From a virus: DNA of 23,568 bases. Positions 9,323-23,568 of the stretch are shown here, one piece after another. The notes beneath the pieces were generated by a model, which did no database searches, was not told the origin of the DNA, and was given only the letters and a program-made list of their open reading frames with translations. Within the stretch, counting starts at the first letter, position 1. Every line of letters begins with the position of its first letter. The translations under genes and the position numbers were made by a program. Where the stretch lies: IMG/VR virus record IMGVR_UViG_3300032326_000583, positions 1 through 23,568 of that record, one strand, 5' to 3'.

Positions 9323-12300
9323 ATGCCAAGTCCAACAGACTTTAACCTCTCACCTTATTTTGATGACTATACTGAGTCAAAGAAATTTCATAGAGTTCTT
9401 TTTAGACCTGCCTTTGCAGTACAGGCTAGAGAATTAACACAATCACAAACAATTCTTCAAAATCAAATTGAAAGAATATCTGACCATCTTTTTGAAAAAG
9501 GTGCTATGGTTATTCCAGGAGAAATTGCTTTTGATTTAAATTATTACGCTGTAAAACTTACATCTAAAACATACGCCACGGTTGCTGAATATATTGGTAA
9601 ACAATTAACAGGTGTTACGTCAGGTGTTGTAGGTATTTGTATAAATGCTGTTGCAACAGATGGAACAGATCCAGATACTTTATACATTAAATATAATAAA
9701 ACAGGAACAAATAATACATCTTTTGCTTTTACGTCAGGCGAAACAATACAAGCCAGAACAATAGGAAGCACAACAGTTTTAGCAACCGCTGTAGTTAATT
9801 CAACTGCCACAGGTGCTGCAGCTAGTATAGCTGAAGGAGTTTATTATATAAATGGTTTTCACGTTTCAGTATCAGAACAAACATTAATACTTGATAAGTA
9901 TACAAATACGCCTAGTTATAGAGTTGGATTAACAATAACAGAATCTTTTATTACTCCAAATGATGATGTTACTTTAGTTGATAATGCCCAAGGTTCATCA
10001 AACGTAAATGCACCAGGCGCTCACAGATTTAAAATAGATTTAACATTATCCAAAAGAACACTAACATCAACTGATGATGCAAATTTTGTAGAATTATTAA
10101 GATTATCAAATGGTGTTAGACAAAACCAAGTTCGTTCAACAGAATATGCTATATTAGAAGATACTTTAGCTAGAAGAACATATGATGAATCAGGCGATTA
10201 TACTGTAAAAGATTTTGATTTAGATGTTAGAGAACATTTAGTATCAGGTAATAATAGAGGTATTTACACTTCAGGTAATGGTGGCGTTGAAACAAAATTG
10301 GTTGCAGGTTTAGGGCCTGGAAAAGCATATGTAAAAGGTTATGAAATTGAAACTATAGGTACAACTTTTGTTGATATAGATAAAGCTAGAGATTTTGAAA
10401 CTGAAAATAATTTTAATACAAGATTTGACGTAGAAAATTTTGTAAACGTTACAAACGTATTCGGTTCACCTGATATTGGATTTGTTTCCGGTGATGTTGA
10501 AGCATTTAAAAATGTTAATCTATTTGATACAGCCACAGTCACAAGAGGTACACAACAATCAACAGTAGGTGTTACAGTTCCACAAATTGGTCGTGCTAAG
10601 TCAAGAGGCTTTGAATTAAACAATGGAACGGCCAGTGCAAACGTATTTTCTAGTACATCCTTAACAAGTGCAGTTTATAAACATTTTTTATTTGATGTAG
10701 AACTGTTTACACATTTAAACGTAAAAACAGCACCTGCTTTTACTAATGGAGAAAAAGTAACAGGAGGCACTTCAGGTGCTTTTGGTTACGTTCAATCCAT
10801 ATCTACTACAAAATCGGCAGCAGTTTCAAGTATTTCGGTTGCAAGTCCTGGAGTTGTAACATTGAACGCACACTCATTTAAAGAAGGAATGCAAATCACT
10901 TTAACAGGTGGTTCTTTTAATATAGGTTCTTCTGCATATACATCAGGCACAGTATTTACAGTTAAAAATCCTACAACAAATACTTTTCAATTATTTGACG
11001 CCGCTGGTGACACGGCAATTAACGTAACTTCTTACAGTTCAGCGCCTACGGCCTCACACGGAGTTACAGTTTTAAATAATGTAACAGGTATATTTGTAGA
11101 AGGAGAAACAATTACAGGTGCTACTTCAAGTGTAACAGCAGTTATACAAAATGATAGATATGGATTTAAAGGTGTACAATTTTTTGATTTCACACAAGTT
11201 AAACAAGTCGGTATGGCAGGTTCTCCTACTTACACGGCAGACGTTACTACAGATTCAACATATGGAGAAAGATATCCTATATTTGGTTCTATATCAGTTG
11301 CAAACAGTGGAACAACAGTAACAGGATTTGGTACTTTATTTTTAACTGAATTAAAAATTGGAGATTCAATTTCATTTACTGATGATGCCGGTGATACAAT
11401 TACTAGGATAGTAGAATCTATTTCCTCAAATACAAGTTTACAATTATTAACAGCAGTTGGAGCTTCTGATGTTTCTACTAAAACAGTTGCATTTAGAAAT
11501 CGTGGTAAATTACAAGGTTCTAATAAAAGTATATCAATATTTCAATTACCAAATACCAGAATTAAAACATTAAAAACTGCAGCAAATGGTGGTATTACAG
11601 ATACAAACTTTAATGTAAGACGACACTTTACAGGTACATTATCATCAAATGGTGATGTTACAATAACGGCCGGTACAAATGAAACATTTACTTCTTTAAC
11701 AGAAAAAGATTTTACGGTTTCTATTATGACTCTTGGTGCAGGTATAACAGGTGCTGTGGGTAATGTATTAAGTTTATCAGGAAACAATCACGAAGGATTT
11801 CCTATATTTGTAAGAGGTGGTTCGCCAACAGGAAAAACATTAACTTTAGATTTTGGTGCTAATTATTCAGGACACAAAGTTAAAATTTTAGCCACAATAT
11901 CAAGAGCTGTTGCAGGTTCAAAAACAAAAACTTTAAACACTAGTCAAACAGTTGCGATTTCAAACCAAACTATAATACAATCTGGAATAATAGGATTAGC
12001 AAAAGCAGATGTTTATAAAATAAATGCTGTTTATATGTCAGCAGATTTTAGTACAGCCGCAACAACTGGTAGTACAAATATTACTACAAGATTTGATTTA
12101 GACACAGGTCAAAGAGATAATTTTTATGATATAGGTAGAATTAAACTAAAAACGGGTGCAATTGTACCAACAGGAAGATTATTAATTAATTTTGATTTTT
12201 TCTCACACGGTTCAGGAGATTATTTTGATGTTGATTCATATTCCGGAGTAATAGATTATGAAGATATACCATCATATAATTCTGACACGACAGGTACAAA

Positions 12301-15300
12301 GTTTGATTTAAGAGATTGTTTAGATTTTAGACCACGTGTTGATGATGCTTCTACAGTTTTAAGTTCAATACAAGATAGACAATATAGTGGTTCAGGAGCT
12401 TCTATAGTTGATATAGTTCAATTTAACTCAGATGTAACTACCGATTTAGAATTTTATTTATCACGTATAGATAAAATATTTTTAGATAAAGATGGTTTTT
12501 TCAAAGTTATAAAAGGTGCTAGTTCTTTAAATCCACAAGTTCCAAAAGGCCTTGAAAATGCTATGCATTTATATACTGTAGTTTTAAATCCTTATACTTT
12601 ACACACAAGTGATTTAAGAATTTTAAAAATAGACAATAAACGATACACAATGAGAGATATTGGACGTTTAGAAAAAAGAATTGAAAACGTAGAATATTAC
12701 ACACAGTTGTCTTTATTAGAAACACAAGCACAATCTTTACAGATACAAGACGCTGAAGGTTTTGATAGATTTAAAAACGGATTTATTGTAGATAATTTTA
12801 CAGGCCACGGAATAGGAGATGTTGGAAATTTAGATTATAAAGTTTCTATGGATATGGCAGGTGGTTATGTTAGACCTTTATTTAATTCTGAATCTGTACA
12901 ATTAATTGAATCGGATGATGATGGTACAACTATTATATCTTCAGATAGAACAGATGCAATTTATCAAAAAACTGGAGACTTAATAACTCTTCCTTATGAA
13001 GAAACAACTATAATTAGTCAACCTTATGCTAGTAAATTTATAAACGTAAATCCTTTTAACGTATTCACTTGGGCAGGTTCAGTTACACTTGATCCTCCAG
13101 GCGATGAATGGAAAGAAACAAATAGAGTTCCTGATTTATTAATTAATGAACAAGGCGCTTTTGATACTATGGCCTCTAATCTAGGCAATCCTAATTTAGA
13201 AAGTGTTGAAATAGATACAGTATGGAATGAATGGCAAGATTTTTGGCAAGGAACGCCGGTAGAAACTACAACTACAAATAATGTTAGACGAGGAAATCAA
13301 AACGGATGGACAGTAGATTTTGGTGATGTTAGTCTTACAACTAATCAGGCCGTTTCTCAAACAAGAACAGGTATCAGATCAGCATTAGTTCCTCAAGTCG
13401 TAAGAACATCATTAGGAGATAAAGTTTTAAATATTGCATTTGTTCCTTTTATAAGAAGTAGAACAATAAATTTTACTGCTACTAGATTGAAACCGAATAC
13501 TAGAGTTTATGCTTATTTTGATAATATTGCTATTACTTCTTATGTTACGCCTACAGGCGGTTCATTAGGCGGCAATTTAGTTACAGATATTAATGGTGCT
13601 GTATCAGGAACTTTTGTTATTCCTGATCCAACCAATGACAGTAATCCTAGATGGAGAACAGGACAAAGATTATTTAGATTGACAAGTTCAGTTACTAACT
13701 CAACAACAGACGTTGAAACTTCTGCTGAAGCGGATTATATAGCTAAAGGTTCTTTAGAAACTGTACAGAATACAATCGTTTCAACAAGAGAACCATTATT
13801 AGTTAGACAAACAGTAAATGATACAAGAAATATTACAAGAACATCTACTAGAACAACTACAGAAGTTATAGCTTGGATTGACCCTATTGCTCAAACATTT
13901 TTAGTTGATGATACTGAAGGTGTTTTCGTAACATCTATTGAATGTTATTTTCAATCAAAAGATGCTAATATTCCAGTTACAATGCAAATAAGAGAAGTTG
14001 TAAATGGTTATCCTTCACGCACAATCGTACCTTTTGGTGAAGTTGTATTAAATCCTAGTGCAGTAAATATAAGTTCTGACTCAACAGTAGCAACTAAATT
14101 TACTTTTCCTTCTCCTGTATATTTACAAGGAAAAACAGAATATAGTTTTTGTTTATTGAGTAATTGTAATAACTATAATGCTTGGGTGGCTAGATTAGGA
14201 GATACACAGGTAGGATCAAACAGAACAATATCAGAAAACCCATATGCAGGTGTGTTGTTTAAATCGCAAAACGGTTCAACTTGGACAGCAGATCAAGAAG
14301 AAGATATAAAATTTAAAATTAATCGTGCAGAATTTTCTATAAACAGTCCAGGTCAAGCAACTTTTACAAATGACTCTTTACCTGTAAAAACTTTACCTAA
14401 CAATTCATTAAGAACAACAAACACTTCAGGAGTAATAAGAGTATTCCATAAAAATCACGGAATGCACGGTTCAAATAATAATGTTACAATTGCTGGAGTG
14501 GCAGCAGGCACATATAATGGTATAACACACACACAAATTAATGGAACATATACAAGCATTTCAAATGTAACTTTAGATAGTTATGATATTACAACAGCTG
14601 GCACGGCCACTGCTACGGGAGATATTGGTGGCACAACTGTAACCGCAACTGAAAATAGATTATATGATGTGGCGTGTTTAAATTTAGGTACTTTAACAGT
14701 TCCAGGAACATCATTACTTTACAATTTAAGAACAACAACTGGTAAATCTATACACGGTACTGAGTCTGAATTTAGTTTAAATTCTACAGCAAATACTATT
14801 AATGTAATACCTGGAGATAATATTTACTTTAATTCACCTCAACTTGTTGCAAGTTCTATAAATGAAACAAATGAAATGACAGGAAGTAAATCATTATTTT
14901 TGAATATAATTTTAAGAAGCACTAATTCTAAACTTTCTCCTGTAGTAGATGTTAAGAGAACAAGTTTAGTGGCAATTCAAAATAGATTAAATAATCCAAC
15001 AGTAGCTAACACACCAAATTTTGTATCAGATACTTCTTCTACAGGTACTTCATCAGCTGCGGTTTATTTAACAAGACCAGTTATTTTAGAAAATGCTTCT
15101 ACAGCTTTAGATGTTAGATTAACTCAAAATGTTAGATCATCTTCTTCAGTAAGAGTATTTTATAGAGTTACAAGCTCTTCAGAAGTAAGAAATATAAATG
15201 ATTTAAGTTGGGTACCATTTAATACAGATGGTTCTGAAGATACAACTGTAACGCCGGCCGAAAACTTTAGTACTTTTAAAGAATACAAATATTCCGATAC

Positions 15301-15409
15301 AGGTATAAATGAATTTACGGCATTTCAAATTAAAATAGTTATGAAAGGTAGCATTTCTTCTTATCCTCCTATTATTAGAGATTTAAGAGGAATAGCATTA
15401 GCGGTATAA
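9323..15409 (+). CDS. Giant DUF4815-type baseplate/tail structural protein, 2028 aa
   Basis: The N-terminus 'DFNLSPYFDDYTESKKFHRV' followed by 'LFRPAFAVQARELTQSQTIL' and 'ISDHLFEKGAMVIPGE' is the signature of the DUF4815 family, large virion proteins of marine T4-like and other myophages. A second conserved block near residues 1245-1620 holds 'FTWAGSVTLDPPGDEW', 'FTATRLKPNTRVYAYFDN' and 'WIDPIAQTFLVDD', then a jelly-roll-like stretch ('PVTMQIREV', 'YSFCLLSN'). Small repeated beta modules lie near residues 92, 139, 475 and 593. The C-terminus ends 'YPPIIRDLRGIALAV'. The gene fills a quarter of the window. Its position after gp8 suggests an outer wedge or long-appendage role comparable to gp9/gp10, but no direct homology to those is seen. 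Confidence 0.8.
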   Translation: MPSPTDFNLSPYFDDYTESKKFHRVLFRPAFAVQARELTQSQTILQNQIERISDHLFEKGAMVIPGEIAFDLNYYAVKLTSKTYATVAEYIGKQLTGVTSGVVGICINAVATDGTDPDTLYIKYNKTGTNNTSFAFTSGETIQARTIGSTTVLATAVVNSTATGAAASIAEGVYYINGFHVSVSEQTLILDKYTNTPSYRVGLTITESFITPNDDVTLVDNAQGSSNVNAPGAHRFKIDLTLSKRTLTSTDDANFVELLRLSNGVRQNQVRSTEYAILEDTLARRTYDESGDYTVKDFDLDVREHLVSGNNRGIYTSGNGGVETKLVAGLGPGKAYVKGYEIETIGTTFVDIDKARDFETENNFNTRFDVENFVNVTNVFGSPDIGFVSGDVEAFKNVNLFDTATVTRGTQQSTVGVTVPQIGRAKSRGFELNNGTASANVFSSTSLTSAVYKHFLFDVELFTHLNVKTAPAFTNGEKVTGGTSGAFGYVQSISTTKSAAVSSISVASPGVVTLNAHSFKEGMQITLTGGSFNIGSSAYTSGTVFTVKNPTTNTFQLFDAAGDTAINVTSYSSAPTASHGVTVLNNVTGIFVEGETITGATSSVTAVIQNDRYGFKGVQFFDFTQVKQVGMAGSPTYTADVTTDSTYGERYPIFGSISVANSGTTVTGFGTLFLTELKIGDSISFTDDAGDTITRIVESISSNTSLQLLTAVGASDVSTKTVAFRNRGKLQGSNKSISIFQLPNTRIKTLKTAANGGITDTNFNVRRHFTGTLSSNGDVTITAGTNETFTSLTEKDFTVSIMTLGAGITGAVGNVLSLSGNNHEGFPIFVRGGSPTGKTLTLDFGANYSGHKVKILATISRAVAGSKTKTLNTSQTVAISNQTIIQSGIIGLAKADVYKINAVYMSADFSTAATTGSTNITTRFDLDTGQRDNFYDIGRIKLKTGAIVPTGRLLINFDFFSHGSGDYFDVDSYSGVIDYEDIPSYNSDTTGTKFDLRDCLDFRPRVDDASTVLSSIQDRQYSGSGASIVDIVQFNSDVTTDLEFYLSRIDKIFLDKDGFFKVIKGASSLNPQVPKGLENAMHLYTVVLNPYTLHTSDLRILKIDNKRYTMRDIGRLEKRIENVEYYTQLSLLETQAQSLQIQDAEGFDRFKNGFIVDNFTGHGIGDVGNLDYKVSMDMAGGYVRPLFNSESVQLIESDDDGTTIISSDRTDAIYQKTGDLITLPYEETTIISQPYASKFINVNPFNVFTWAGSVTLDPPGDEWKETNRVPDLLINEQGAFDTMASNLGNPNLESVEIDTVWNEWQDFWQGTPVETTTTNNVRRGNQNGWTVDFGDVSLTTNQAVSQTRTGIRSALVPQVVRTSLGDKVLNIAFVPFIRSRTINFTATRLKPNTRVYAYFDNIAITSYVTPTGGSLGGNLVTDINGAVSGTFVIPDPTNDSNPRWRTGQRLFRLTSSVTNSTTDVETSAEADYIAKGSLETVQNTIVSTREPLLVRQTVNDTRNITRTSTRTTTEVIAWIDPIAQTFLVDDTEGVFVTSIECYFQSKDANIPVTMQIREVVNGYPSRTIVPFGEVVLNPSAVNISSDSTVATKFTFPSPVYLQGKTEYSFCLLSNCNNYNAWVARLGDTQVGSNRTISENPYAGVLFKSQNGSTWTADQEEDIKFKINRAEFSINSPGQATFTNDSLPVKTLPNNSLRTTNTSGVIRVFHKNHGMHGSNNNVTIAGVAAGTYNGITHTQINGTYTSISNVTLDSYDITTAGTATATGDIGGTTVTATENRLYDVACLNLGTLTVPGTSLLYNLRTTTGKSIHGTESEFSLNSTANTINVIPGDNIYFNSPQLVASSINETNEMTGSKSLFLNIILRSTNSKLSPVVDVKRTSLVAIQNRLNNPTVANTPNFVSDTSSTGTSSAAVYLTRPVILENASTALDVRLTQNVRSSSSVRVFYRVTSSSEVRNINDLSWVPFNTDGSEDTTVTPAENFSTFKEYKYSDTGINEFTAFQIKIVMKGSISSYPPIIRDLRGIALAV

Positions 15410-16574: not shown

Positions 16575-17495
16575 ATGGCAGTTAGAACACCTCTTTTTTT
16601 TAATGACGATCAAAATTTGCAAGAATTAACATCTGCTGAAATTTCTCAAATTAAGTTGAGAATGTATAATTTGTACATTAATAATCCTTCTGTTTCATTA
16701 TCTTATGTATCATCAGGAGGCACATTGGGAACAATTAGTGATACAAGATTAATAGCAGGAAATTCTGCTACAAGTATAAGTGCTTTTCCTGAAGAAATTA
16801 CAACAGAAGAACCAACTGTGTTTAATGTAAATTTTAGTAGAATAAATCAAACAATTGACACTGTTAGTCAACCATCTAATACTGATAATATTGAATATCC
16901 TCTTTATTACACAATAGACGGTAATTTACAATCAATGACATTACAAGATATGTATGACACTTTTGCTTTTGACGTTATTAATGAATTAAATATTGGTGGA
17001 GTTATATATACAATTTCAACTGAAACCTCAATAACTGATTACACACTTGTAGATGCAACTCCTGTTTTTACTAATACTTCAACAAATACTTCATTATATT
17101 CAGCTGGAGGTATTACTGAAACGTTAGATCAACCAGAAACTTTAGAAAATTTTTATTTACATAAAAGAAATCCAGACCTTGTGTTTTCTTATAATATACC
17201 TGTTAGACTGACTGCCACAGGTAATATAGAAACTCCTGAATTTAATACTTTTGATTCTATATTAGAAAGTGTTATTAGATATACAGCTGCAAACGTTACT
17301 AACTATAGATTAAGATTTGGTTATAATTTAGAGAATGGCAATAATTGTGGTACTGCTATGATAGATACTCGTTTAAATGGTTCAGGAGATTATCAAACAT
17401 TACAAGTTGGTGGTGATGATTATAGAGCACAAGAATTTCCAAACGGTTCGGAAATAACAATAAATACATATAGTTTAACAATAAGGAAAGAATAA
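16575..17495 (+). CDS. Virion structural protein, 306 aa
   Basis: The protein starts 'MAVRTPLFFNDDQNLQELTSAEISQIKLRM' and includes 'NIEYPLYYTIDGNLQSMTLQDMYDTFAFD' (about 112-140). Proteins with this opening are found in the late structural block of marine T4-like phages, with virion or baseplate location inferred from context. The C-terminal half is beta-rich with 'YHLHKR'-like and 'YRLRFGYNLENG' segments, and it ends 'NTYSLTIRKE'. No known domain is assigned. The next gene overlaps its stop by 1 nt (TAATG), which suggests coupled translation. Confidence 0.65.
   Translation: MAVRTPLFFNDDQNLQELTSAEISQIKLRMYNLYINNPSVSLSYVSSGGTLGTISDTRLIAGNSATSISAFPEEITTEEPTVFNVNFSRINQTIDTVSQPSNTDNIEYPLYYTIDGNLQSMTLQDMYDTFAFDVINELNIGGVIYTISTETSITDYTLVDATPVFTNTSTNTSLYSAGGITETLDQPETLENFYLHKRNPDLVFSYNIPVRLTATGNIETPEFNTFDSILESVIRYTAANVTNYRLRFGYNLENGNNCGTAMIDTRLNGSGDYQTLQVGGDDYRAQEFPNGSEITINTYSLTIRKE
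17483..17490 (+). promoter_or_regulatory. Ribosome-binding site AAGGAAAG
   Basis: AAGGAAAG lies 4 nt before the ATG at 17495, inside the 3' end of the preceding gene. It supports the overlapping TAATG start. Confidence 0.6.
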
Positions 17496-17983
17496 TGATT
17501 TTAATTAATGGTAAATTTACAAATGCTGTATTTTCAAGTAGTAAAAAAAATTTGATAAGAGCTATATGGTATGATGAAATTAAAAAAACATATCAAGAAA
17601 TATCAATCAAACCTGATTTAAATGATAATATGTATAAAAAGTTATTGGAAACTTTTACTACTGATGAAATTTCTACAATGACCGATCAGAAGCATAAAAA
17701 TCAAACCGCAAGTTTTGAATTAGTTGTAAAAGACATAGCAAAAAAATATGGTTTAATTTATGACCCAGCAATTACTAATCCACAAGATAAATTAACACTA
17801 GATCATTTATTTACACCTACAAACGATAACGTAGGAACAGATTTATTATTTAATCTTAAAGTAAAAATATTTGATTTACCGCAAGTAAGTTCTTCTACAA
17901 ATAGTGAATTGAAGAAAAAATTAAGAGAAACTAAAACTCCTTTAGAAGCTCTTTATGTTGCTGGTAAATTTTTATACGAATAA
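17495..17983 (+). CDS. Hypothetical protein, 162 aa
   Basis: The protein starts 'MILINGKFTNAVFSSSKKNL'. The first ~60 residues look like a small beta unit plus helix, the middle carries 'SFELVVKDIAKKYGLIYDPA', and the C-terminus is helical ('LKKKLRETKTPLEALYVAGK'). No family is recognised. It starts on the last base of the preceding stop and is the last gene of the rightward structural run. Its 3' end overlaps the minus-strand cargo operon by 12 nt, tail to tail. Location in the late block suggests a virion or assembly protein. Confidence 0.6.
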   Translation: MILINGKFTNAVFSSSKKNLIRAIWYDEIKKTYQEISIKPDLNDNMYKKLLETFTTDEISTMTDQKHKNQTASFELVVKDIAKKYGLIYDPAITNPQDKLTLDHLFTPTNDNVGTDLLFNLKVKIFDLPQVSSSTNSELKKKLRETKTPLEALYVAGKFLYE

Positions 17984-18670
17984 ATTGTATTTTTCCCAAT
18001 CGTGTGGGTGGTTATCCATATGTGTAAAATGCACATACTTAATATCAGGATAAAATTCATTTCCTAAAAACATATAAGGATTACCAGTTACTTTATTATA
18101 TAATCTATTCAGTGTAGCTACAGTATGTCTTGCAAAATGTTTATTTCTAGCCTCCATTCTACAAAACCATTCATTTGGTAATTTAATTAATTTAAGTTTT
18201 TCATTAACTGAATCTTCTATAAAGTGTTGTTCGCCATTAATTGGGCCTGAAGTAAATCCTTCTTCTATATATTTTTTCTGCCAGTGTTCTGGACTAGCCA
18301 TAAATTTTTCATAAATGTAATGACAATCTTTCGGAAAATACTTGTAAAATCCTCCATTAATACTAAATCGTTTTCCTTCTTCTCCTTTTAAATCTCTCCA
18401 CCATCCTGGTGCAGCTAAAAACTGACCAGGCTCTATAGGATATTCAAATATTTTTTTATAATCATTAATTAATAATATATCAATATCTATTACACAAATA
18501 GGTTCATCAATGTTTAGTGTCATACCATACATTTTGTTCCATTGCAATTTAATATTATCGGCCATTGGCTCTCTTATCCAAACAAATTCATATTCAGGCA
18601 GTTTACTTTCTAAATATGTTTCATATTCAGAACCATATCTATTACCAATTCTGACTGCTACTATTTTCAT
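17972..18670 (-). CDS. Glycosyltransferase-like protein, 232 aa (last gene of cargo operon)
   Basis: The N-terminus 'MKIVAVRIGNRYGSEYETYLESKL' fits a Rossmann-like GT-A glycosyltransferase of the GT8-like type. 'CVIDIDILLIND' carries a DxD motif (D62-I-D64), which normally binds a metal and nucleotide sugar. 'SINGGFYKYFP' (about 102-112) and 'NGEQHFIEDSV' are also typical acceptor-side segments. The C-terminus holds 'YPDIKYVHFTHMDNHPHDW', a His-rich end comparable to the late catalytic motif in GT8-like enzymes. Its ATG overlaps the methyltransferase stop (ATGA), so translation is probably coupled. It is probably cytoplasmic, since no membrane segment is seen. The acceptor is unknown. Confidence 0.65.
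   Translation of the reverse strand: MKIVAVRIGNRYGSEYETYLESKLPEYEFVWIREPMADNIKLQWNKMYGMTLNIDEPICVIDIDILLINDYKKIFEYPIEPGQFLAAPGWWRDLKGEEGKRFSINGGFYKYFPKDCHYIYEKFMASPEHWQKKYIEEGFTSGPINGEQHFIEDSVNEKLKLIKLPNEWFCRMEARNKHFARHTVATLNRLYNKVTGNPYMFLGNEFYPDIKYVHFTHMDNHPHDWEKYNLFV
17974..17994 (+). terminator. Weak possible terminator hairpin
   Basis: ATAC...GTAT with inner A-T pairs forms a short stem of about 6 bp with one bulge and a 4-nt loop, followed by TTTT. It spans the stop codon of the 162-aa gene, where rightward transcription meets the leftward operon. The stem is short and AU-rich, so this is a low-confidence call. Confidence 0.2.
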
Positions 18671-19815
18671 ATTTTTTGTAATGCTACTTGATTTTTTTTA
18701 GGTATAATTAATTCTTTAACTTTATTTTTATATATTTTTTTAAAACTATCTACAGCTAATTTAGGACTCAAAGTTTCATCTTCTAATATTTGATTTGTAT
18801 TGTGGTCTCTGGCCTTCCAATTTACTGCGTCATCAATTAACATTATACCATTATCATTTAACATATTAAAAGAATATATTAAATCTTGTATAACAATATG
18901 CGACCTGTGGTCTCCATCAACATATATAAAATCAAATTTTTCTTTCGTGTGAATTAACTTTTGAAGTACATTTAAAGAATAGTCTTTATAATAAGTTATT
19001 TTATTATTGTTTTTGCAGTTATGTAAGTTATGTAACCAATTTTTCTCAACAGTATTAAACAAAGATTGTGATAAATTGTAAATATCTGATTTGAAAGGAT
19101 CTATTGTATGTATTTTCAAATCATAATTATCGGCTAACCATATTGAATATTTTCCTTCAAATGTTCCTATTTCTAATACTTTTTTAACAGAATTGTTTTT
19201 GAATAAATGTTTTGTATTTTCTATTGCGTTATCTGACCAATTTCTATTAAATTTATAATTACCAAATTTAGAGTAATACTCATTTAGAGTCATTTTAGGC
19301 ACATTAAAATTATTAATGTCACCAGAATAATAAATGTGCCTCCAAGAAGAAGATTTTTCAGAATCTTTACCTACCAGATATAAATTCTCATCATTCACTA
19401 TCCAATCTATTCCTTCATATAATCTTTTTATAGGACTGGAATTAGGATGCCTTGATATAAAATAAAAATTATATTTTTTAAAGCTTTCTTCATTATATTC
19501 TTTAAATATTTCTGTTCCATATTGACATATTTTTTTAAATACTGTTGTAGGTGTTTTTCCAATATATTTTGGATTAGCAAAAAACTTAGTACTACATCTT
19601 AACACGTTAGGACTATAAAGACCGCCGTTTACAGCCGTGCAAGAATATGCAGGTTCTTCATTTAATAATGCACAGACAAAATATTCGTCTTTAAAATCTT
19701 TAATTACTTTTTTAATGTTATTTTTTTTAGCTAAGGTCTGTAAATATTCAAATTCAAAATATGGTTTATCAGATACTATGAATTTTATATCATCTTTTAT
19801 AGTTTCAATATACAT
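18667..19815 (-). CDS. Class I SAM-dependent methyltransferase with unassigned N-terminal domain, 382 aa
   Basis: The C-terminal half is a methyltransferase. The SAM-binding motif 'VLEIGTFEGKYSIWLAD' (about 212-228) is followed by 'IHTIDPF', then the 'FDFIYVDGDHRSHIV' acidic loop (about 294-308) and 'GIMLIDDAVNW' (about 323-333). This order is typical of the Methyltransf_24-type fold that modifies small molecules or sugars. The N-terminal ~190 residues are a separate domain; 'YNFYFISRHPNSSPIKRLYEG' and 'FFANPKYIGKTPTTVF' loosely recall an acetyltransferase (GNAT-like) layout, but this is tentative. Its ATG touches the stop of the preceding glycosyltransferase-like gene. A two-activity sugar-modifying enzyme would suit the operon, but this is inference. 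Confidence 0.7.
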   Translation of the reverse strand: MYIETIKDDIKFIVSDKPYFEFEYLQTLAKKNNIKKVIKDFKDEYFVCALLNEEPAYSCTAVNGGLYSPNVLRCSTKFFANPKYIGKTPTTVFKKICQYGTEIFKEYNEESFKKYNFYFISRHPNSSPIKRLYEGIDWIVNDENLYLVGKDSEKSSSWRHIYYSGDINNFNVPKMTLNEYYSKFGNYKFNRNWSDNAIENTKHLFKNNSVKKVLEIGTFEGKYSIWLADNYDLKIHTIDPFKSDIYNLSQSLFNTVEKNWLHNLHNCKNNNKITYYKDYSLNVLQKLIHTKEKFDFIYVDGDHRSHIVIQDLIYSFNMLNDNGIMLIDDAVNWKARDHNTNQILEDETLSPKLAVDSFKKIYKNKVKELIIPKKNQVALQKI

Positions 19816-20481
19816 TTAAATCCAATAATCTTTTATCCAAGTATTTAAATCTTGCTGTTTACTTCCGTGATTTAAAATACAAACTTCATAATCTGTTCTT
19901 AGTTTTTCTGGCGTAGTATCTTTACCATATCTTACGCCTTTCCAATATGAATAAGCTATTGAGGTTGGTAATAAATCTACTTCAACAGGTTCATTAAACA
20001 AATAACGATCTATGCCTTGATATTTGAATAAAACCATTTCTTTATTTTTTTGAAAATAATCATATATTTTAACTCCTTGATTGCCTTGCCATTTCATAAT
20101 AGATGAATTGTATAACGTGGGATATTTTTCTTTTGCAGTTGGCATTAAATATCCTTCTTTCCATTGAGAATATAAAACCGAGAAAGTTCTTGTTTTGACA
20201 GAAAATAATCTATCTAAAGGATTTAATATAATAACATCTAGGTCAAAAAATATGTTTACGTCTTTATTAAAAATATTTAATAAATCAAGTTTAGGCCACC
20301 AATCTTTTAAGTCTGAATTTATTTTAATAGTTTTGATATTGTCTATAAGGTTTGAATTGTTATCTGTATAACAATAAAAATCAAACGGTTGACCATTACA
20401 GTTTTTCAAGACCATATTATATAGCCTATTAACATAATCAGAAGAATATTTTGTTCCCCATTTAACACATAATATATTCAT
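19816..20481 (-). CDS. Glycosyltransferase-like protein, 221 aa
   Basis: The N-terminus 'MNILCVKWGTKYSSDYVNRL' and 'FDFYCYTDN' fit a GT-A fold resembling GT8-type glycosyltransferases. The metal/nucleotide-sugar motif is 'NIFFDLDVIILNPL' with D80-L-D82. 'WWPKLDLLNIF' just before it is typical of the same enzymes. The C-terminal 'ILNHGSKQQDLNTWIKDYWI' includes a His-Gly-Ser segment like the late catalytic motif of this group. It shares its opening pattern with the 232-aa protein (K/R-x-G-x-[KR]-Y-x-S/E-Y), so the two may be related. It sits between the QueC-like and methyltransferase genes, 14 nt after the former. Donor and acceptor cannot be told. Confidence 0.68.
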   Translation of the reverse strand: MNILCVKWGTKYSSDYVNRLYNMVLKNCNGQPFDFYCYTDNNSNLIDNIKTIKINSDLKDWWPKLDLLNIFNKDVNIFFDLDVIILNPLDRLFSVKTRTFSVLYSQWKEGYLMPTAKEKYPTLYNSSIMKWQGNQGVKIYDYFQKNKEMVLFKYQGIDRYLFNEPVEVDLLPTSIAYSYWKGVRYGKDTTPEKLRTDYEVCILNHGSKQQDLNTWIKDYWI

Positions 20482-20495
20482 AATAAAAAAATAAT

Positions 20496-21287
20496 TTAAG
20501 AGTAATCTGTAGTATCTTCTACGCCTGCTTGTGATAATGCATATTTTTTACCTAAACAATCACTGCAATATCCACAATTTAATTTTGTAGTTAAAACTGG
20601 ACAAGAAACGGATTCAAAAATTTTATCTTTTAAACTTAATATTTCGTAAAATTTAATTATATTAGTGGTTGTTAAATTTATAAAAGGTTTTTGTACAGAT
20701 TGATAGTAGTGATTTATTTGTTCAAACCCTAATACTTTGTTTATAGCAGGTATTTTGTAGTCTAAATTTTTAGTATAATAATAAAGTTCAGGATATTTTG
20801 ATGAATTGTTATCTAAGTATCCATTAAGTTCGTTTACAGAAAGTAATCCTTTGTCCCAACCTGAGTCTAATAATAACTGTATTGTTTCTTGATGCATATT
20901 ATTGTGACCTGCAAAAAGAAATTTTACGTTTGAAAATTTTTCATTAATTTTTTCCATTATTAAATCATAGTTAAATTTGTGTTGATCTAATAATCCTTCT
21001 GTATTGTGTATTGAGTGAATAGCATTTAACTTTTCTAGTCCTAAAGTAAAATTGTTTTTTGCTTTAATTAATTTTGTTGGATTATTTTTAAAATTAGCAA
21101 ATTCTTCTGGAGTATTTAAAACAAATACAATATTTTCTATGCCATAAATTTGTTTGGCCATAAGTCCTAATAAGTGCGATTTAATACCAGCTGTATATAA
21201 TATTGCTATTTTTTCACCTGTTGCAATAGGTTTAAACACATCAAAAGTGCTAAATGTTTTTCCGTTTATGTTATAAGTACTATTCAT
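20496..21287 (-). CDS. QueC-like PP-loop protein with altered nucleotide-binding loop, 263 aa
   Basis: QueC makes 7-cyano-7-deazaguanine (preQ0) in an ATP-dependent reaction, and QueC-like proteins also occur in modification and defence systems. Two features point to the family. The C-terminus has four cysteines, C229, C238, C241 and C244, followed by 'GKKYALSQAGVEDTTDY', the QueC zinc-site and tail pattern. The N-terminal 'KIAILYTAGIKSHLLGL' lies where the PP-loop 'LSGGxDS' should be. Here the loop reads TAGIKS (32-37): the first Ser is Thr, the first Gly is Ala and the Asp is Lys. 'VKFLFAGHNNMH' resembles the later nucleotide-pocket strand. It follows the radical SAM gene by 3 nt. The altered loop suggests lost or changed ATP chemistry, or a different substrate. 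Confidence 0.7.
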   Translation of the reverse strand: MNSTYNINGKTFSTFDVFKPIATGEKIAILYTAGIKSHLLGLMAKQIYGIENIVFVLNTPEEFANFKNNPTKLIKAKNNFTLGLEKLNAIHSIHNTEGLLDQHKFNYDLIMEKINEKFSNVKFLFAGHNNMHQETIQLLLDSGWDKGLLSVNELNGYLDNNSSKYPELYYYTKNLDYKIPAINKVLGFEQINHYYQSVQKPFINLTTTNIIKFYEILSLKDKIFESVSCPVLTTKLNCGYCSDCLGKKYALSQAGVEDTTDYS

Positions 21288-21290
21288 TGT

Positions 21291-22298
21291 CTATTCTTTC
21301 TTTTTTTTATACCACAAAGTTTTTTGTGGTGTTTTAACTCCATCTATCTCGGTAACGTGAACCTGAGATCCTGTACAACGTTGATGACAAACAGATTTAT
21401 TGTTTGCATACATTAACTCTAACCACTCATTATACAACTTACTCTCTAAAATTTCAAATATAGTTTTATTATGTAATGATATACTATATTTATCTTTGTA
21501 AATAGGCCAGTTTGTAGATTTGTGAAATAAAGAAGCTGTCCAACAACAAGGAAATAAATTACCCCAAGAATCAACGTATATTTCTTTCCTTTGTTTATGT
21601 AAACAAATAAGAGGTCCTTTTTCTACTTGCATATCTTCAATATTAAATCTATCTGCTGTTGGAGGATAAATTGATTTTTTATTATTATCTTTATCTTTAT
21701 ACAAATAAGGTTTTTTAAAGTCTTTAAATCTTGCTGATATTTTTAAAACAAATTCATTAAATCCTATTTCTTTGGACAATTTTTCAGCTTCTTCAACTTG
21801 ATGCTCGTTATGAAAAAAAGGTATAAAAAACCATTTTGCATTTGCTCCTGTTGCAATAAATGCTTTTGCATTTTCTATAAGTTTTGACCATTTAACGTCT
21901 ACACGATAGATATGGTTTGTATCTTCTAGTCCGTCAATATGAAACTCTACGAAAGATTTAGTATTTGTTTTGTATATTTCTCCTAATTTGGTCCAAAAAT
22001 CTGTATTTCTTACACCACCATTTGTGCTTAAAGATATTAATATATTAGGATTATTGTCTAAAATATATTTTGTTATAGGCAATAAATCGTGAGCTATTGC
22101 TGGGTCTCCAAAATTACCACAAAATTTAAATTTTTTTAATGACTTGATAAAATCTATTGAAAAAAACTTAATAAAATTATCATAACTAATTTCTGATTGA
22201 TTATTAAGTATAAGTGAATTATTAGTCCTAGAACACATAGGACACTTTGCATTGCAACGGTTGGTTATTTCAAGGTGTACAGAATCAATTTGTTTCAT
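21291..22298 (-). CDS. Radical SAM/SPASM-type enzyme, 335 aa (first gene of cargo operon)
   Basis: Radical SAM enzymes use a [4Fe-4S] cluster to split SAM and start radical chemistry. The cluster motif is 'NRCNAKCPMCSR', with C15-x3-C19-x2-C22 at the N-terminus. A variant of the 'GGEP' SAM-binding motif appears as 'FCGNFGDPAIAHDL' (about 59-72). The C-terminal region carries auxiliary-cluster cysteines in SPASM spacing: C232-x13-G246-x4-C251, then C252, C304 and C308. 'ISLSTNGG' and 'KSFVEFHIDGLED' are typical barrel strands. SPASM enzymes often act on peptides, but some act on sugars or other substrates. It is 3 nt from the QueC-like gene and has a late-type promoter upstream. No Shine-Dalgarno is obvious. 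Confidence 0.85.
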   Translation of the reverse strand: MKQIDSVHLEITNRCNAKCPMCSRTNNSLILNNQSEISYDNFIKFFSIDFIKSLKKFKFCGNFGDPAIAHDLLPITKYILDNNPNILISLSTNGGVRNTDFWTKLGEIYKTNTKSFVEFHIDGLEDTNHIYRVDVKWSKLIENAKAFIATGANAKWFFIPFFHNEHQVEEAEKLSKEIGFNEFVLKISARFKDFKKPYLYKDKDNNKKSIYPPTADRFNIEDMQVEKGPLICLHKQRKEIYVDSWGNLFPCCWTASLFHKSTNWPIYKDKYSISLHNKTIFEILESKLYNEWLELMYANNKSVCHQRCTGSQVHVTEIDGVKTPQKTLWYKKKKE

Positions 22299-22310
22299 TA
22301 TTATATGATC

Positions 22311-22318
22311 TATTTATG
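22311..22318 (-). promoter_or_regulatory. Minus-strand late promoter box CATAAATA
   Basis: Read on the minus strand the sequence is CATAAATA, one base from TATAAATA at the least constrained first position. Predicted +1 is near 22305, 7 nt before the ATG of the radical SAM gene. It lies back to back with the plus-strand box at 22322, only 3 bp apart, so it probably drives the whole five-gene operon. Confidence 0.55.
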
Positions 22319-22321
22319 ATG

Positions 22322-22329
22322 TATAAATA
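22322..22329 (+). promoter_or_regulatory. T4-type late promoter box TATAAATA
   Basis: An exact late -10 box. Predicted +1 is near 22335, giving a 25-nt leader with a strong ribosome-binding site. A second near-match, TATAAATT, lies at 22333-22340. The context ATGATGTATAAATAT also occurs at the 7816 promoter. It restarts rightward structural transcription after the cargo operon. Confidence 0.75.
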
Positions 22330-22359: not shown

Positions 22360-22569
22360 ATGTCAATAACCATTAATGGAAAAGACTATGATGAAACTAA
22401 GTTCAGTGATAAATTGAAAAATTACATTATAGCAAGACAAGAAATACAAAATAATAAAACAAGATTATTAGTTGAAATTGAAAAAATAGACGTTTTAACT
22501 GAATACTATAATAATAGAATTATAGAGGAATTAGGTATAGAGGTTAAAGAAACTAAAGAAACAAAATAA
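22360..22569 (+). CDS. Small DUF6447-like phage protein, 69 aa
   Basis: The protein starts 'MSITINGKDYDETKFSDKLK' and continues as a long helix with 'IIARQEIQNNKTRLLVEIEK'. This layout (short beta 'ITINGKDY', then a helix pair) matches small DUF6447-type proteins seen in marine T4-like phages; the assignment is from memory of the pattern. It ends in a charged tail 'EVKETKETK'. It is the first gene after the divergent promoters, with the strong ribosome-binding site, and the next gene's ATG follows its stop directly. The function is unknown. Confidence 0.7.
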   Translation: MSITINGKDYDETKFSDKLKNYIIARQEIQNNKTRLLVEIEKIDVLTEYYNNRIIEELGIEVKETKETK

Positions 22570-23223: not shown

Positions 23224-23568
23224 ATGGCAACTATAATTAAAATTAAAACGTCCAGTGGCCTAGGTACACCTGCAACAGCCAAAATTGGAGAGCTTTCGTA
23301 TTCATACGCTACAGGTGCCTATAACACATTAGGAGATAAACTCTTTATTGGAGTTGGTCCAGTTGATGGTAACGGAGATGCCTCATCACAGGTTGTAATT
23401 GGCGGTAAGTATTTTACAGCAGCTTTAGATCATCAACCAGGAGTTTTAACTGCTAGTTCAGCTATTATCACTGATGCAAATAAAGCAGTAGATGAAATTA
23501 TTATAGGAAATAGTACAACAGTTGGTGGCGGAATTAAATTAAATGAAGGTACTAATAACGGTACTGAT
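23224..23568 (+). CDS. Fibre-type structural protein, N-terminal part, cut by the window edge
   Basis: 115 codons are present in frame with no stop before the window end. The start 'MATIIKIKTSSGLGTPATAK' followed by 'IGELSYSYATGAYNTLGDKL' and 'FIGVGP' is a widespread opening of marine phage fibre proteins (the 'G.l.yt.......g..LfiG' module). 'IGGKYFTAALDHQPGVLTAS' then 'AIITDANKAVDEIIIGN' is the repeating shaft unit that usually continues for hundreds of residues. The gene follows the 84-aa gene by 3 nt. It is likely a receptor-binding or shaft fibre; its C-terminal tip is outside the window. Confidence 0.75.
   Translation, partial: MATIIKIKTSSGLGTPATAKIGELSYSYATGAYNTLGDKLFIGVGPVDGNGDASSQVVIGGKYFTAALDHQPGVLTASSAIITDANKAVDEIIIGNSTTVGGGIKLNEGTNNGTD

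Follow-up and report, generated by a model that had tools for sequence, protein, structure and literature searches.

A five-gene antisense enzyme cassette among the tail genes of a marine T4-like phage and its possible role in tailoring the virion

The 23,568-nucleotide (nt) viral record IMGVR_UViG_3300032326_000583, analysed on one strand over its whole length (the window), carries five minus-strand open reading frames (ORFs) at 17972-22298 amid plus-strand baseplate and fibre genes. Transcribed in the order A-B-C-D-E, they encode a radical S-adenosylmethionine (SAM) enzyme, a QueC-family protein, a glycosyltransferase, a methyltransferase and a second glycosyltransferase. The ORFs are not chance ones, because each is conserved as a protein and their order is kept in independent contigs; the block has its place among tail genes in related phages, too. 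We consider it about an even call that the five genes form a cassette for tailoring a tail protein of the virion in the cytosol; its substrate, the order of its steps and its benefit to the phage we infer. All five ORFs of the packed block described in a first-pass annotation of the sequence are present:

17972-18670, minus strand: gene E, retaining GT-A glycosyltransferase; slow-evolving, conserved more strongly and found more widely than any other cassette gene
18667-19815, minus strand: gene D, N-terminal domain plus SAM O-methyltransferase of the COMT/MycF type (Pfam Methyltransf_24, 5.7e-13)
19816-20481, minus strand: gene C, GT8-like DxD glycosyltransferase (PHROG glycosyltransferase, 5.3e-12)
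20496-21287, minus strand: gene B, QueC-family protein (PP-loop, zinc motif) with degenerate nucleotide loop and intact Cx8CxxCxxC, fast-evolving
21291-22298, minus strand: gene A, radical SAM enzyme with a twitch/SPASM-type auxiliary Fe-S domain (CxxxCxxC, GNxGD, Cx18CC...Cx3C)

Genes A and B are 3 nt apart, B and C 14 nt, and C and D 0 nt; D and E overlap by 4 nt, and E overlaps a convergent plus-strand gene, s162 (17495-17983), by 12 nt. The ratio of nonsynonymous to synonymous substitution rates (dN/dS) of each cassette ORF lies between 0.02 and 0.30 in the closest clade.

The five gene products

Gene A matches NCBIfam N_Twi_rSAM (5e-13) and, slightly short of the curated cut-offs in both cases, the Pfam families Radical_SAM (3.7e-6) and SPASM (0.0019); its profile found no homologue among solved structures at 0.01. 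The CxxxCxxC of the SAM cluster (C15, C19, C22) is invariant and, together with GNxGD, Cx18CC and Cx3C, is found unchanged in 11/11 relatives; the signature also occurs in 40/40 siphophage homologues. Since the C-terminal cysteines are too few for a full seven-cysteine SPASM domain, A is best called twitch-like.

Genes C and E are homologous to each other and both carry a DxD motif; in sequence, neither significantly matches solved GT8-like members. The predicted model of E is confident (predicted local distance difference test, pLDDT, 93), and almost all of the top PDB matches to it belong to retaining GT-A enzymes, the Foldseek matches including UGGT, LgtC, GlyE, LH3 and LARGE1. D62-x-D64 and GEQ are invariant in 34 homologues of E. 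The profile of C weakly matches glycogenin and Skp1 galactosyltransferase (E 0.08-0.4), and its DxD is kept in 34/34 homologues. For gene D, the predicted model (pLDDT 85) retrieves O-methyltransferases with Foldseek at 1e-7 to 1e-8, in lists dominated by the methyltransferase part; the N-terminal domain has a GNAT-like predicted order of strands and helices, and a PDB profile search with it found nothing. About half of the relatives replace D by D', an unrelated gene of ~190 amino acids (aa) between B and C. The idea that D' is the same domain as the N-terminal part of D was dropped, as the profile comparison was not significant.

Gene B is homologous to a copy in contig L032 (hidden Markov model, 3.7e-23), which itself matches Pfam QueC at 7e-13 and has the loop SGGMDS. 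The window copy reads TAGIKS where QueC has SGGxDS; the loop is degenerate in all 11 aligned copies, SGGMDS being kept in L032 only, and its decay has taken various forms (TAGIKS, SGGSNS, TNGIKS, QGGIES, TGDIET, EADIES) at invariant zinc cysteines. Of the aligned copies, that of the window and five more have an intact Cx8CxxCxxC zinc motif, and the remaining five have the same four cysteines with a shorter first spacer. The substrate motifs YxQxHxxE, VPxRN and YPDC of QueC (PMC13329287) are absent from every B copy, including that of L032. For gene B the dN/dS is 0.14-0.48, whereas most values for A, C and E fall within 0.02-0.13; its rate of evolution is several times that of the other operon genes. 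As all values are below 1, B is constrained, but loosely. Judged from the lost SGGxDS loop, a catalytic role of B is doubtful. Because the loop has gone while the zinc site, the fold family and the place in the operon were kept, the simplest view of B is that of a one-time ATP enzyme retained for binding or specificity. Stepwise loss of the ATP loop at a conserved zinc site and gene order makes it a useful example of how an enzyme can change into another kind of protein within an operon. A separate contig, L031, has homologues of C, D, E and A, an extra copy of C, two more radical-SAM-like ORFs and, on the opposite strand, an intact SGGVDS QueC-like gene, all in no recognisable tail context.

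The enzyme calls of the first-pass annotation hold up: radical SAM/SPASM for A through Pfam, NCBIfam and the invariant cysteines, QueC-like for B by transitivity via the L032 copy (the SGGxDS loop being lost in the window clade), methyltransferase for D through Pfam and Foldseek, and DxD glycosyltransferase-like for E through its model and for C through the PHROG match (5e-12) and the weak GT8 matches. Its view of the block as a biosynthetic or modification cassette is supported as well.

Two other readings start from genes A and B. In its chemistry the pair resembles QueE and QueC, and A directly precedes B in 11/14 B-bearing groups; A and B could begin a small-molecule or nucleotide pathway whose product, a modified base, nucleoside or sugar, would be finished by C, D and E and serve hypermodification of DNA or RNA or as a cofactor. 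The QueC family does belong to the 7-deazaguanine pathway (PMC13329287), and QueD, too, is found in Campylobacter phages that have radical SAM clusters. However, B of the window clade has neither SGGxDS nor any of the three canonical QueC motifs, A is a twitch/SPASM enzyme and not QueE, the cassette holds no QueD or FolE gene, and it sits among tail genes, not replication genes; we regard such a pathway as improbable. QueC-family proteins have also been co-opted to modify proteins, in type IV cyclic-oligonucleotide-based anti-phage signalling systems (PMC13279940) and, by proposal, in qatABCD (PMC11996544), so that B might, like Cap9 or QatC, attach a nucleobase to a partner protein by N-terminal deazaguanylation or a related conjugation. 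The substrates of Cap9 and QatC start with MG, though, and 0 of the window's ORFs of at least 60 aa do; the ATP loop of B is degenerate, and genes for 7-deazaguanine supply were not seen. This reading is very hard to credit.

Conservation, neighbours and promoters

Fourteen IMG/VR contigs carry A at 72-93% identity, and in every one the A-B-C-E order and orientation next to s162 are unchanged. Once redundancy was removed, A, B, C and E stood together in 11 groups, six with D and five with D', never both. A scan with E found 147 contigs, of which 80 were kept. More distant marine T4-like phages retain C and E next to s162 and s306a, the next gene of the tail region, but differ in the intervening genes, with B, A and D present in some and missing from others; s162 adjoins E convergently in 14 groups and C co-directionally in 15. 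Between C and E lie a small unassigned family (F6), the families F4, F12 (13 members) and F9, and further radical SAM proteins. F9 (~440 aa), seen in contigs L112-L177, has no Pfam match and often stands directly before E. In the same contigs F4, an Asp/Asn hydroxylase (Pfam Asp_Arg_Hydrox), accompanies the glycosyltransferases, which recalls the hydroxylation and subsequent glycosylation of collagen-like proteins.

The block lies on the strand opposite to the tail genes in the window's relatives, in L032, in L112-L118 and in the SAR11 myophage Mosig EXVC030M (MT647606), and co-directional with the tail operon in 17 other groups, which rules out a fixed strand as a constant feature of the cassette. 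In the co-directional groups the genes from s162 through C and as far as E follow one another with overlaps of 4-38 nt at most junctions, and nothing like a promoter separates them. Close relatives thus show no scattering of the genes, whose linkage, order and strand hold in about 11 independent groups; farther out, the strand varies and the linkage narrows to C and E.

Mosig is also the closest cultured relative of the window (80% nt identity over part of the VrlC gene). At the same site it has 13 antisense genes (L178, 60990-71305), which include homologues of A, C and E as well as nitroreductases, a PseC/LegC-like aminotransferase and a NodU-like carbamoyltransferase. Two overlapping ORFs of this block, Mosig_00084 and Mosig_00085, look like a radical SAM core and a C-terminal Fe-S domain. 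Among cultured phages other than Mosig and Campylobacter phages there was no match for A, B, C or E; the methyltransferase domain of D alone matched two further records.

The features next to the cassette are:

16575-17495, plus strand: s306a, 306-aa variable tail/fibre-region protein, candidate substrate; homologue Mosig_00097
17495-17983, plus strand: s162, 162-aa tail-region gene, constant cassette neighbour and candidate substrate or partner; homologue Mosig_00095
22311-22318, minus strand: CATAAATA, late-promoter-like, 20 nt upstream of the start of A and one base off TATAAATA
22322-22329, plus strand: TATAAATA, late promoter of the divergent fibre block, one of five in the window

On the plus strand the surroundings comprise a gp25-like wedge gene, a gp8-like wedge gene and a VrlC-type baseplate gene (9323-15409, 2028 aa, matching phrog_358 and the VrlC of Mosig), with the cassette 2.6 kb beyond the latter; on the far side of the cassette follows a fibre-assembly-like gene, and the divergent plus-strand fibre block begins at 22360. 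These genes agree with the earlier description of the neighbours as baseplate or fibre genes, but the two genes at 16575-17495 and 17495-17983 have no family match. The dN/dS of s306a is 0.20-0.34.

The plus strand holds all five copies of TATAAATA in the window, each outside ORFs and 13-38 nt ahead of a start codon. The variant CATAAATA before A is conserved in the three nearest relatives (L001-L003) and absent from L004-L014, which have a sigma-70-like TTGNNN-N17-TATAAT element at -35 in its place; L115, L118 and Mosig have an exact TATAAATA ahead of the cassette's first gene. The cassette had been credited with its own late-type promoter and with being made together with the virion proteins. 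The promoter stands for the window and its nearest relatives but is ruled out as a constant feature by the L004-L014 clade, and from the promoter sequences late expression is likely in most lineages, not a fixed property.

Tail protein or host surface

Distant homologues of A (28-37% identity) occur in unrelated, uncultivated marine siphophages, at loci that include a lambda J-like tail protein and tail-collar genes. There the A homologue lies directly downstream of a tail-fibre-like gene, with GT28 and methyltransferase genes near it. In an earlier siphophage set, TAATG was found at 25/40 junctions between fibre and radical SAM gene. The set for testing this arrangement was picked by a 155-aa gene upstream of the fibre, not by A, although the query itself came from A-bearing loci; in it the radical SAM gene follows the fibre in 38/38 scorable independent groups, with a 1-nt overlap in 30/35 simple layouts. 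The pair (L034-L097 and L211-L274, e.g. L043:6778-8987) is possibly the cleanest, simple two-gene system in which to test for fibre modification. The 155-aa tail-region protein, always just ahead of the pair, has a conserved acidic C-terminus, PPSVDxQVEDFIKEFF...DFLxEFF (L037:6160-6624, L043:6303-6764), and resembles s162 in size and place.

In the mechanism we propose, the cassette enzymes would act in the cytosol during infection, their targets being freshly synthesised tail-fibre or baseplate proteins of adjacent genes, with s306b, s306a, s162 or the fibre block from 22360 as candidates. Gene A would introduce a radical modification at a residue of the fibre polypeptide, C and E would add sugars from nucleoside diphosphate (NDP)-sugars partly made by the phages themselves, D would O-methylate, and D' would likewise add further groups. 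The QueC-derived B would probably be a substrate-binding or specificity subunit, not a normal PP-loop ligase. The modified fibre might then differ in receptor binding, stability or recognition.

A virion target is favoured because C and E keep their place beside s162 and s306a across strand flips, because the block is embedded in the tail operon in the 17 co-directional groups, because late-type promoters precede the antisense block in the window clade, L115, L118 and Mosig, and because the A homologue is coupled to a fibre gene in unrelated siphophages. The proteins A-E show no membrane segment or signal, and a cassette with no membrane component points the same way. Further support comes from sugar supply, since related phages encode an NDP-sugar epimerase/dehydratase beside a DegT aminotransferase; from the matches of E to UGGT, GlyE, LH3 and LARGE1, which include several enzymes acting on proteins or glycoproteins; and from virion glycosylation in mycobacteriophages as a precedent (cited in PMC12619734). 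The epimerase/dehydratase and aminotransferase were found in 5/5 long contigs (two cassette phages, two C/E phages and one siphophage) and are mutually adjacent in three. NTP_transferase was not found in these five; a complete sugar-nucleotide pathway was set aside, the epimerase and aminotransferase steps alone being shown.

The other target named by the first-pass annotation, the host surface, we keep as a rival, the fixed place beside tail genes favouring the virion. Here the enzymes would build or alter a sugar of the O-chain of the host lipopolysaccharide (LPS), so that infected cells and their debris would no longer bind other phages or released progeny. The glycosyltransferases of the pelagimyophage host recognition cluster (HRC) have been read in this way in print: PMC7029224 describes radical SAM cassettes alongside GT8 enzymes and deoxysugar genes in the cluster and argues for O-chain modification since SAR11 bacteria are almost without restriction systems. 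The GT8 similarity and the NDP-amino-sugar genes of all five long contigs agree with it. So do several points that weigh against a virion target: LgtC, an LPS galactosyltransferase, is among the best matches of E; a GT4-GT2 fusion and an FkbM methyltransferase/glycosyltransferase gene, both LPS-like, stand on the cassette strand beside the cassette in L002 (1819-5150); and L004-L014 have the sigma-70-like element and not the late one. Further caution is due on three counts. A neighbourhood is no proof of a substrate, sampling by homologues of E and A favours loci that contain them, and myophage and siphophage A proteins of 28-37% identity may act on different things.

Several points speak against a host-surface role: the cassette encodes neither a membrane protein nor a flippase or lipid-linked transferase; its linkage to tail genes is lasting, within the tail operon in many lineages; and the A homologue is fibre-coupled in another phage class. 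A related bacterial cassette, for example in SAR11 surface loci, was also sought: among 84,980 bacterial and archaeal genomes, A had a single remote relative (Elusimicrobia, 25% identity), in a scan that needs exact short peptides and did not cover SAR11 genomes directly, so this is weak evidence of absence. On balance we hold host-surface remodelling to be unlikely, if still of real weight.

Beyond the cassette, we tentatively propose, with doubts clearly in excess of our confidence, that a widespread radical SAM/twitch class, co-translated with fibre genes or encoded beside them in myophages and siphophages, would install radical-derived modifications in fibres, in marine T4-like phages combined with glycosylation, methylation and a catalytically degenerate, QueC-derived specificity subunit. 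If the target is the virion, marine phages would chemically tailor their receptor-binding proteins, radical chemistry included. Host range and recognition would thereby gain an extra layer, one not visible in the fibre sequence alone. Tailoring of a virus coat by sugars and a radical step has hardly been explored, and the choice between own tail and host LPS is a testable one for the glycosyltransferase and radical SAM cargo common in SAR11-type myophages.

Comparison with known systems

The region itself is a known one. The HRC of pelagimyophages and cyanomyophages, as described in PMC7029224, occupies the same place beyond VrlC and has the same kind of cargo (glycosyltransferases, radical SAM, methyltransferase); likewise, the window cassette lies in the variable tail region beyond VrlC together with fibre genes and glycosyltransferases. 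Further marks of such a cluster are an end at gp14 and a SAR11 host; the window stops at 23568. The HRC block of Mosig differs from the cassette in having 13 genes and no B. In the passages considered, the paper mentions no QueC-family gene and interprets the cargo as modifying host LPS. The first-pass annotation did not recognise the combination as a named system, which is fair for the gene set but not for the region, whose cassettes of glycosyltransferases and radical SAM enzymes were reported in 2020 (PMC7029224). In the literature searched, with many subscription papers outside its scope, we found no description of the gene set, of the fibre-coupled radical SAM enzyme or of a QueC-family gene in such a cassette. 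While cargo at the level of the region is already known, the gene set, the fibre-coupled enzyme and the decaying QueC thus appear to be undescribed.

Campylobacter phages CP220, CPt10 and F379 (PMC2853527) resemble the window in that they have several distant radical SAM relatives of A, accompanied by an amidinotransferase and an NDP-sugar transferase, in the vicinity of baseplate hub genes. They differ in that identity is ~27%, the gene order does not match and the modules are read there as metabolic genes. The block of F379 (L180), with five radical SAM genes, the amidinotransferase and the NDP-sugar transferase, may be an analogous tailoring block.

Gene B descends from the QueC family (PF06508; QueC, QatC, Cap9) and keeps its Cx8CxxCxxC, but in the window clade it departs from that family by the lost loop and the missing substrate motifs. 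With the GT8-like retaining GT-A enzymes (LgtC, glycogenin, GlyE, UGGT), C and E share the fold and the DxD motif. Serotype conversion of the O-antigen by gtrABC-type genes differs from the cassette, as A-E include no membrane flippase or lipid-linked transferase. For virion glycosylation in mycobacteriophages, which are different phages, we know of no radical SAM or QueC-family partner. What that system has in common with the cassette is phage glycosyltransferases, which there modify capsid and tail proteins (Freeman et al. 2023, cited in PMC12619734).

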